From assembly GCA_030683995.1 (NCBI GenBank), contig JAUXPH010000015.1, positions 124,001 to 188,000 of the forward strand: 64,000 bases of DNA. The letters are read 5' to 3'. The position numbers were made by a program, and so were the translations under genes. The DNA comes from Lutibacter sp. (lineage in GTDB: Bacteria; Bacteroidota; Bacteroidia; Flavobacteriales; Flavobacteriaceae). Position 1 is the first letter of the stretch. Every line of letters begins with the position of its first letter. Positions 13,255-63,637 of this stretch are shown piece by piece. Under the pieces are notes generated by a model. It ran no database searches and was not told the origin of the DNA. It saw only the letters and a program-made list of their open reading frames with translations.

Positions 13255-13950
13255 TTAATGAAAAGCAAATTTTATAAAAACGCCTCTTGTTCCAAAATAA
13301 TCAACTTGTCCAGTCCATTGACTATTAGGGTTATTATCCCTGACCAACTCGTCATTAATTGCAAAAACGCCTCTAATGGATGGTGAAAAAATAAAGTACG
13401 GCAAGTATAAATCTACGCCAATACCCAATTCATAAGAAAAATTGTTCTTTTTGGCTCTGAATTCTCCATCGGAATTATCCTGTGGATTGTCTTGGTTGCT
13501 TGAAAAATTATAATCGTAAGATAGGCCGCCGATTGCATAAGGCCGCATATTATCGAGCCGATCTGTATTAAATTTCAGCAATAATGGAACTCTAAAATAA
13601 GTTGAATTCACATTTCTGATACTGTCTTTTTTCCCACCATAAATATGCGTAAACGCCAATTCTTTTGAATTGCTTGAAAGTCCAGGCTCTAATCTTAAGC
13701 TAATATTATTATGCAATCGCAAATCGCCAATAAGTCCAACTTCAAAACCCATACCTGGGGTTGAAACAATAAAAGCGTTGTTTGTTTTATAAGATATTTT
13801 ATAATCTTTCATATTCAAACCTAAAAAATATCCCCAAAAAACCTGTTGCTTGTCCCAATTTTGCTTGTATTGAACAATATCTCTTCTTTGGGCTTTCAAA
13901 TTGGTTATTGAAAAGACGACCAAAAAAATCACAACAAATACTCTTTTCAT
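13255..13950 (-). CDS. porT: PorT (type IX secretion system outer-membrane protein)
   Basis: Signal peptide MKRVFVVIFLVVFSITNLKAQ; outer-membrane beta-barrel, 231 aa; adjacent to ubiE as in other Flavobacteriia. The ORF-track start at 13995 lies inside the 89-bp repeat. Confidence 0.8.
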   Translation of the reverse strand: MKRVFVVIFLVVFSITNLKAQRRDIVQYKQNWDKQQVFWGYFLGLNMKDYKISYKTNNAFIVSTPGMGFEVGLIGDLRLHNNISLRLEPGLSSNSKELAFTHIYGGKKDSIRNVNSTYFRVPLLLKFNTDRLDNMRPYAIGGLSYDYNFSSNQDNPQDNSDGEFRAKKNNFSYELGIGVDLYLPYFIFSPSIRGVFAINDELVRDNNPNSQWTGQVDYFGTRGVFIKFAFH

Positions 13951-14036
13951 CTGTTTAAATTTTATTTTTTTATTGGTACAGATGCAGTTCGCCATTAATC
14001 ATTTCTGTTTTTATCAAAATTTGTTATGGCTCGTTT
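13948..14036 (-). repeat. 89-bp dispersed/tandem element, copy A (leader of porT)
   Basis: catctgtttaaattttatttttttattggtacagatgcagttcgccattaatcatttctgtttttatcaaaatttgttatggctcgttt; 88/89 identical to copy B. Confidence 0.95.
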
Positions 14037-14128
14037 CATCTGTTTAAATTTTATTTTTTTATTGGTACAGATGCAGTTCGCCATTAATCAATTCTGTTTT
14101 TATCAAAATTTGTTATGGCTCGTTTCAT
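14037..14128 (-). repeat. 89-bp element, copy B (tandem with A, includes terminal CAT)
   Basis: Same 89-bp unit, one mismatch (atcatttctg vs atcaattctg), then CAT. Confidence 0.95.
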
Positions 14129-40394: not shown

Positions 40395-41492
40395 TTATGA
40401 TCTGTTTATTAATTTTACAATTTCTTCAACGATGTCTTTTGTGGCATTTGGCAATGCCAGTTTTTTGATGTTTTTACTAAAAGTTTGCTGCAATTCTTCG
40501 TTCTCCAGCAGCGTTATTACATTGGATTGAAACATATCCAATTCCGATTCTTTCAGCATTAAAGCCGCATTGCTATTCACCACCGCCAATGCATTTTTAG
40601 TTTGATGGTCTTCAGCCACATTTGGCGAAGGAATAAAAATTACCGGTTTCCCAACAATGCACAATTCCGAAATAGAACCTGCACCGGCACGACTTATAAT
40701 AAAATCGGCAGCGGCATAGGTTAAATCCATCCTGTTCAAAAAAGCGTGGGTTTGAACGCCATCTAAACGGTCGTATTTTTTAAATTCTTCATAATACAAT
40801 TTTCCGGTTTGCCATATCACCTGCAAGTTTTTGGAAACCAGCCAATCTAGGTATTTTTCAATCAAATTATTAATGGCTCTCGCGCCTAAACTTCCGCCAA
40901 GAATCAAAAGTGTTTTCTTATCGCTGTTAAGATTGAAAAACTTTTTGGCTTCTTCACCTTTACCTGCTATTTCAAGCAAATCCTGACGTACCGGATTTCC
41001 TGTTTTAACAATTTTGTTCAAAGGAAAAAAGCGCTCCAATCCATCATAAGCCACACAAATTTTATCGACTCTTTTCGCCAATAATTTATTGGTGATTCCC
41101 GGATAGGAATTTTGTTCTTGAATCAATGTTTTTATTTTTCGGTTGCTTGCAACGAATAATGTTGGTCCGCTGGCAAAACCTCCTGTCCCTATTACAATAT
41201 CCGGTTTAAATTCTTTGATGATTCTATATGCTTTTGACAAGCTGCTCACCAATTTAAAGGGAAATGAGAAATTTTTTAATATAAATTGTCGTTGAATTCC
41301 TGAAATCCACAATCCTTTAATAGCATATCCCGCTTCCGGAATTTTCTCCATTTCCATTTTATCCTTTGCGCCGACAAACAAAAAATTTGCTTCAGGATAT
41401 CTTAGTTTTAATTCATTGGCAATAGCGATTGCCGGGTAAATATGCCCGCCAGTGCCGCCTCCGCTTAATATGATGTTAACCGATTGCTTCAT
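40395..41492 (-). CDS. murG: UDP-GlcNAc--undecaprenyl-pyrophosphoryl-MurNAc-pentapeptide GlcNAc transferase
   Basis: [32 protein letters not shown]. Confidence 0.98.
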
Positions 41493-42666
41493 GTAGTACT
41501 GTTAAAGGGTTATCTTCACTGGCGATATCTGGGTTTATTTCTTTTTCGGCTGTAACGCTTAAAATTATGCCAATCGCAAAACATGTCATCCAAATAGAAG
41601 TTCCGCCACTGCTTATTAACGGCAATGTTTGTCCGGTCACCGGCATCAAATTAACGGCAACGGCCATATTTATGAGTGCTTGAAAAATGATGGGCAGACC
41701 AACGCCAATAATAATGAGCGTGGCAAAAATACTTCTTGCTTTTTTTGCCGCAATCACAATGCGAAACAGCAAAATAAAATACATCAGAATTACCAATAAA
41801 GCGCCAATCAATCCATATTCTTCCACAATAATGGCGAAAATAAAATCGGAGGAAGATTGTGGCAAAAAGTTTTTTTGGATACTTTTTCCCGGACCTCGGC
41901 CCTGCAAACCGCCAGTTGCGATGGCAATTTTTGCTTTTTCAACCTGATAGCCTTCTTCAGCACTCGGATTGGAAAAATTTTCAACCCTGCTAATCCAAGT
42001 ATCAACCCGGTTAGGGAAAACTCCGGGAAGCGCTTTAGCAGTCAATACAAATAATCCCAAAAACACGATGCCAAAACCCACAACACCCAATAAATATTTA
42101 ATAGGGTAACCTCCAATAAAACACACCATCAATATCATTAAAAAAGCGATAGCCGTGGTTGAAAAGTTTGCCGGTAAAATTAATGCCAGGGTAATGGCTA
42201 TTGGCAGCCATAACTGTAAAACACTATCTTTGAAAGATATTTCGCTCTCTTTTTTTCGCGCCAAATATCTGGAAACATAAATCATCAGCACCAAAACAGC
42301 CAATGTAGATGTTTGAAAACCAACGCCTATAAACGGAATTTCAATCCACCTGCTGGCGTTTGAACCCCCAATGGTTGTGCCCTGTGAAAGGGTATAAATT
42401 AATAACAAAATGACCAAAGGCAACATTAATACTGAGCCGCCGCTAAAATATCTAAACGGAATTTTATGAACGCCGTAAATAATTAAGAACCCAAGAAACA
42501 ACAAAATCACATGCTTAAATAAATAATAGAAAGGTGTGCCAATATTGGTTCCGTAAACCAAATTGGTGCTTGTGCTGTAAACAGGCAAAAATGACAAAAT
42601 TGCCATAACGGTCACAATTGCCCATATCGCTTTATCTCCTTCTATATTTTTAAGAATGTTTTTCAT
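41476..42666 (-). CDS. ftsW: SEDS-family cell division protein FtsW
   Basis: Multi-[21 protein letters not shown]; dcw position. Confidence 0.96.
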
Positions 42667-42774
42667 CTGTTTATTATTAATTTTTTATTGGTACAGATGC
42701 TGCCTGCCTGCCGGCAGGTAAATTCGCCATTAATCATTTCTGTGTGTATCAAAATTTGTTATGGCTCGTTTCAT
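42664..42774 (-). repeat. Dispersed 89-bp element, copy C (leader of ftsW) with nested CCTGCCGGCAGG palindrome
   Basis: catctgttt...attggtacagatgc[tgcctgcctgccggcaggtaa]attcgccattaatcatttctgtgtgtatcaaaatttgttatggctcgtttcat. Confidence 0.93.
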
Positions 42775-63516: not shown

Positions 63517-63601
63517 CCCTTTCCTAAGGAAAGGGAGTTTGATTTGGAATTAGAAAGATGTTTAAAACAAATAACTTTTAACCTGCCTGCCGGCAGGCAG
63601 G
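63517..63601. repeat. Two palindromic repeats upstream of argG
   Basis: CCCTTTCCT-A-AGGAAAGGG (63517-63535) and CCTGCCTGCCGGCAGGCAGG (63582-63601, perfect 20-bp palindrome). Confidence 0.85.
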
Positions 63602-63637
63602 CTTTTAACTTTTAACTTATAACTTTCAAACTACGCA

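Follow-up and report, generated by a model that had tools for sequence, protein, structure and literature searches.

The window, the whole stretch of 64,000 nucleotides analyzed here, spans positions 124001-188000 of contig C71 in a Lutibacter genome of 3.08 Mb and 71 contigs. It contains three minus-strand copies of a short element, at the ubiE-porT and murD-ftsW junctions. Copies A and B lie head to tail between the ubiE ORF and porT and are 88/89 identical. The features are as follows (^ marks the edge of an element).

13255..13950, minus strand: porT; its ATGAAA start is the target of copies A and B; empty in genomes G005 and G006
13948..13955, minus strand: right end of copy A with the target start codon, AACAG^ATG; partner of the internal guide
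13951..14039, minus strand: element copy A, 89 bp, ATGAAACGAGCC...AAACAG, directly upstream of porT (sequence and genome match search)
13977..13984, minus strand: guide of copy A, CATCTGTA on the minus strand, complementary to ACAG^ATG
14040..14128, minus strand: element copy B, 89 bp; its right neighbour is copy A's own ATGAAA
14066..14073, minus strand: guide of copy B, CATCTGTA, complementary to its own end and the ATG of copy A
41476..42666, minus strand: ftsW; copy C targets its ATGAAA start, a site that is empty in G003, G026 and G034 and in every more distant Lutibacter examined
42667..42774, minus strand: element copy C, 108 bp, with an inserted palindrome, between the murD stop and the ftsW start
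42692..42699, minus strand: guide of copy C, CATCTGTA, complementary to ACAG^ATG at the ftsW start
42700..42720, no strand assigned: palindrome CTGCCTGCCTGCCGGCAGGT in copy C; the same variable interior position is occupied in many other copies

All three copies begin with ATGAAACGAGCC and end in AAACAG, and ATGAAA comes next with no gap. The core motif occurs 2 times in the window against 0.00 expected (100 shuffles). Copy C has about 20 extra bases relative to A and B, which form a GCCTGCC/GGCAGGC palindrome. A preliminary description, made from the sequence alone, had reported the 89-bp tandem, the third copy before ftsW and the ATGAAA that follows each of the three. These observations held, with copy C longer by its extra palindrome. 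Another GCCTGCC/GGCAGGC palindrome is present at 63585-63602 of the window, alongside the one at 42700-42720.

A search of the own genome with the unit gave 60 matches, and right-end and profile searches found further copies, many with palindromes. In total there are at least 62 insertion sites and about 77 full copies counting tandem arrays; the copy number is a lower bound, and no base-by-base scan of the whole genome was made. The right-end motif TAAACAGATGAA has 82 exact occurrences among the right-end matches, some of which are native leaders and not elements. The right flank is ATGAA in 62 of the 64 distinct sites reconstructed (50 single, 11 double and 1 triple array). At these 62 sites, which had been selected on ATGAA, the left columns carry little information and right columns 1-5 are full. 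When relatives are included, the hexamer that follows is ATGAAA in 273 of 289 distinct copies and ATGAAT in 8, a count made without boundary adjustment. Insertion is always in one and the same orientation, directly 5' of ATGAA(A/T). Arrays appear to break assemblies: contigs C56 and C59 of the own genome start within or next to them.

Comparison with related genomes revealed empty sites at both junctions. At porT, the two empty genomes read AAATAATAT^ATGAAAAAA with no unit, G002 has one copy, and G029 has two, as does the own genome. At ftsW, the site is empty in three sister species and in every more distant genome examined. When 25 joined flanks were compared with three sister species (G005, G006 and G021), 32 clean empty alleles and 25 filled ones were obtained. 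Filled alleles are longer than the joined flanks by 85-277 nt; several empty alleles differ by 0 nt in length, with up to 99% identity over the junction, and no base was lost in the alignments at insertion sites. One site has ATGAAT as its target: the empty allele is ATGAATTTT in two species, and the filled allele carries the element (ATGAAACTAG...AAACAG) directly before ATGAATTTT. The left ATGAAAC is the element's own and not a copy of the target, therefore there is no 6-bp target duplication, and any duplication is of 5 bp at most. The five bases ATGAA are common to element and target, and a duplication confined to them is therefore not ruled out. The ATGAAAC at the left edge comes with the element, so a resident copy offers a further ATGAAA target, and insertion there yields a tandem. 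Clean empty sites with precise insertion thus identify a mobile element and not a duplicated UTR. Mobility is almost certain on this comparative evidence; neither live transposition nor a circular form was observed.

About 53 of the 63 non-tandem own copies precede an ORF, and about 10 precede no real ORF. The downstream genes include miaA, lipB, ddl, coaE, thrB, aroQ, xerD, lysC, ftsW and porT (names assigned by eye) and share no common theme. One copy (L038, on contig C32 of G000) interrupts a short ORF, which by visual inspection seems antitoxin-like, at an ATGAAA that is out of frame; when the flanks are joined, the ORF reads through. Because such non-start and in-ORF insertions exist, we infer that the real target is the one-sided hexamer ATGAA(A/T) and not the start codon as such. 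In the window, 128 ATGAAA occur, of which 17 are gene-start-like, 9 intergenic and 102 inside ORFs. The bias towards start codons is likely to result mostly from selection, with insertions inside genes being removed. ATGAAA is a frequent gene start and insertion there breaks no ORF, and in this inference it is mainly the copies at start codons that survive.

In the element read 5' to 3', an internal CATnTG(TT) is reverse-complementary to the final bases of the unit together with the ATG of the target. The variable pair between this guide and the end is C-G in 254 copies, G-C in 29, T-A in 5 and A-T in 3, with about a dozen wobbles or mismatches. Among 38 diverse copies, 92.7% of cells are paired, the covariation score was reached by 0 of 500 shuffles, and sliding the guide partner by 1-3 columns destroys the covariation. 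Since the ATG is fixed by the target, the evidence for covariation rests chiefly on one base pair. RNAalifold found no stable consensus fold for the element, and its single-stranded DNA folds no better than shuffles (z 0.06, 0.67 and -0.16). With so weak a free-standing fold, guide pairing stabilized by a protein fits better than a riboswitch.

After insertion, the stem between guide and end covers the downstream start codon, and a modest effect on translation is therefore predicted. In a simple partition-function calculation on filled and joined empty alleles, the accessibility of bases -5 to +3 of the downstream gene was 0.31 in the filled state against 0.50 in the empty state (n=62, p 3e-5). 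The model thus predicts that the leader supplied by the element pairs with the start codon and does not expose it. Several inferences of the preliminary description can be judged at this point. A small non-autonomous element that lies before ATGAAA and leaves the downstream ORF intact is upheld by the comparative data. That it supplies a new leader also held, but this leader is predicted to hide the start codon. The proposed duplication of ATGAAA failed at the ATGAAT site, and the targeting of start codons held only in part, the target being the hexamer and non-start copies being present. A lack of further copies, random flanks, or relatives with divergent leaders of the same length had been named as refutations. 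The genome-wide copy and flank check was positive and the flanks are thus not random; the empty-site check was positive at porT, ftsW and in the 25-site comparison, and the divergent-leader alternative failed since the empty alleles lack the whole unit. Its statement that no described family was recognized held in our search of Rfam and open-access PMC.

The element usually measures 87-90 bp, and up to about 145 bp, and has no gene of its own. Its ends, ATGAAACGAGC and ...TAAACAG, are not inverted repeats, unlike those of a classical MITE. As for a MITE-type target duplication, there is no 6-bp one, and one of ATGAA is indistinguishable from the element's own ATGAA. Both ends and the guide are conserved and the interior is exchangeable, as expected if only the sequences needed in mobility persist. 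GCCTGCC/GGCAGGC palindromes, sometimes doubled, occupy one fixed interior position in many copies, and in relatives TCCCGAATTTTCGGGA palindromes are found at the same position. These palindromes are another small repeat that apparently targets the element. A second type of about 88 bp, ATGAAACGCCTACAACAGAATCATC...AAAAAATAGCAA^ATGAAA, has an unlike interior and the same boundaries, and its guide, CATTTG with CAA^ATG, obeys the same rule. This type is interleaved with the first in arrays of relatives, at ten loci. In G017, eight loci carry a 145-bp form, where a structured segment of about 75 bases (GGAGGGCGGAGCGTAAAGAATTTGTCC...GGACAAATTT...GCCAGCTGGC) stands in place of about 22. A covariance-model search of Rfam 15 with the window locus and this 145-bp variant gave no match.

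Within Lutibacter, a strict pattern found 15-87 copies in 13 genomes and 0-3 in the rest; the reversed pattern found 0 in every Lutibacter genome. A more open query detected diverged copies in most of the remaining Lutibacter genomes tested, with more than 50 in G017 alone, where 70 left ends are present. A covariance model detected relatives in 99 of 301 Flavobacteriaceae genomes, from 89 of 238 genera. This model takes in eight flank bases, which biases the family-wide copies towards ATGAAA. The queries used within Lutibacter stopped at the edge of the element, and the flank figures for Lutibacter are thus free of such bias. Searches of IMG/VR contigs (exact pattern), PLSDB plasmids and phages revealed no carrier. 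A Gelidibacter-labelled MAG has two copies with the Lutibacter-type left end (L131), which may reflect horizontal spread or a binning error. In G073, at least three tandem copies lie directly before a pyrH-like gene (L382), and their left ends are ATGAAT, not ATGAAA.

No mobilizing enzyme was identified, and its class is a guess among possibilities. The own genome has three PF01797 (Y1) matches, all RAYT-like genes, each flanked by its own, differing palindromic repeats (GTCCCTAACGGGAC; ATTGCAAATCCGCGC; CACGAGCGGGACGCTCGTG). No unit match was found within about 1.5 kb of the Y1 genes examined, and the high-copy genome G017 (assembly 88% complete) has no PF01797 match. Neither the own genome nor the genus yielded a Y1 transposon whose ends match, and the IS200-like elements elsewhere in Lutibacter have different ends. 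A larger autonomous form with the same ends was considered and rejected: no transposase was present at the TAAACAGATGAA right ends examined in G000, nor at partial copies or unmatched left ends in G017.

The account that we favor, with moderate confidence when taken as a whole, is a transposase-less family spread across the Flavobacteriaceae and mobilized in trans with the aid of its guide. The complementary strand reads TTTCAT^C-TGTTTA...GCTCGTTTCAT^, with the target retained in the 5' flank and that sequence recurring as the 3' end of the element. An enzyme supplied in trans would cut one strand at TTTCAT^, both at the 5' flank and at the 3' end of the element. The guide would help to select the cleavage site, as in the single-strand transposition of IS200/IS605; there are no cleavage data. 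That this enzyme is itself IS200/IS605-like is inferred by analogy, and we regard it as tentative and less likely than not. As there are no hairpins and no Y1 transposon with matching ends, we say that the element works like IS200/IS605, not that it is one.

Site-specific recombination is another possible explanation. Here a 90-bp circle with the junction ...AACAG^ATGAAAC... would cross with a chromosomal ATGAA(A) through short core homology. The catalyst may be a tyrosine or serine recombinase, whether of the host or resident, or else an enzyme of IS110 type (bridge-RNA); no co-distribution data are available for these recombinase families. This model fits the core of 5-6 bp common to both junctions, the exact head-to-tail arrays, the precise empty sites and the absence of a longer duplication. 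A guide spanning an end and the core also resembles a donor-binding loop. However, there are no inverted-repeat arms beside the core, and the target is conserved on one flank only. Circle integration explains the tandem arrays and the shared core as well as the IS200/IS605-like model does. A bolder reading, which also remains possible, is that the element represents an undescribed class of nucleic-acid-guided, transposase-less elements, whose insertion is programmed to ATG-containing hexamers by base pairing. Throughout a whole bacterial family such elements would reside at start codons, with an unknown, widely conserved chromosomal enzyme as their mobilizer.

The remaining alternatives are weaker. 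A cis-regulatory 5' leader, acting as a riboswitch-like translational attenuator with secondary or rare mobility, would account for copies that stand before genes in the gene's orientation, and for a covarying guide that pairs with the start codon and lowers its predicted accessibility. We consider it unlikely, however: the downstream genes lack a shared theme, presence is polymorphic between sister species, copies also precede gene-less ATGAAA and one splits an ORF, and neither an Rfam match nor a stable RNAalifold consensus was obtained. It is more doubtful still that the element is a mobile mini-ORF cassette, whose ATGAAACGA... would take over initiation and let the downstream gene restart by translational coupling. 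In some copies the frame does run from the ATG to a stop that lies 4-5 nt short of the next ATG, e.g. MKRALQILTHKGMINGELHLLPLKNKN, but it stays open to near the end in only 41 of 261 copies, and in most it stops after MKRA or MKRAC; a conserved peptide was rejected on the same count. An ordinary duplicated UTR or local tandem duplication would explain the near identity of copies A and B, but the dozens of unrelated sites, the precise empty alleles and the family-wide spread all but exclude it.

The element illustrates how a mobile repeat can build up dozens of copies even in a compact genome: the sequence it uses is often a gene start and at the same time a safe harbour. From species to species it alters the leaders of many essential genes and may alter their translation as well. 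If the guide does act by base pairing, insertion might be reprogrammable. The element is also a hazard for annotation, where its ATGAAACGA can be mistaken for a gene start.

Among known systems, IS608 likewise has an internal guide and retains the target at the 5' flank alone [PMC5934647]. In both IS608 and our element, insertion takes place 3' of a short sequence that is retained in the 5' flank (TTAC for IS608, TTTCAT on the complementary strand for the element). The cleavage sites of IS608 are read by its internal guide [PMC5934647], and the element has a complementary and covarying one, but without cleavage data, and its position and length differ: it covers at most 5 end bases plus the target ATG, whereas in IS608 a tetranucleotide at the hairpin foot is involved. 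The IS200/IS605 criterion of no target duplication and a target on one side only is met, with the reservation that a duplication of ATGAA alone cannot be excluded. However, the element lacks tnpA, tnpB and hairpins, while IS200/IS605 ends carry clear hairpins.

PATEs, which are palindrome-associated and derived from IS200/IS605, and the SMRs of Haloquadratum walsbyi are short, high-copy repeats without transposase [PMC3119063]. Like the element, PATEs and SMRs insert precisely with no target duplication; PATEs also have no terminal inverted repeats and are invaded by small repeats [PMC3119063], as the element is by GCCTGCC/GGCAGGC palindromes. PATEs differ from the element in having palindromes near their termini and related transposons whose ends match, none of which was found here, and the relevant sections of PMC3119063 mention no start-codon target. 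REP/BIME sequences with their RAYT (TnpA_REP) are likewise short, high-copy intergenic repeats, presumably moved in trans. However, REPs are palindromic and the element does not fold, and the RAYTs of the own genome adjoin other repeats. The TAACTGA direct repeats of Beggiatoaceae, also found in some Bacteroidetes, are present in many copies, many of which end a few bases from a start codon [PMC4679880], but they are 7-bp tandem repeats without the structure of the element, defined ends or reported empty sites. No description of the element was found by sequence string or topic in the open-access PMC literature, subscription papers being outside the scope of the search. On the basis of this literature and Rfam, it is likely that neither the element nor its mobilizing machinery has been described. 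Mobile repeats without transposase are already known, and it is possible that what is new here is the mobilizing principle itself.
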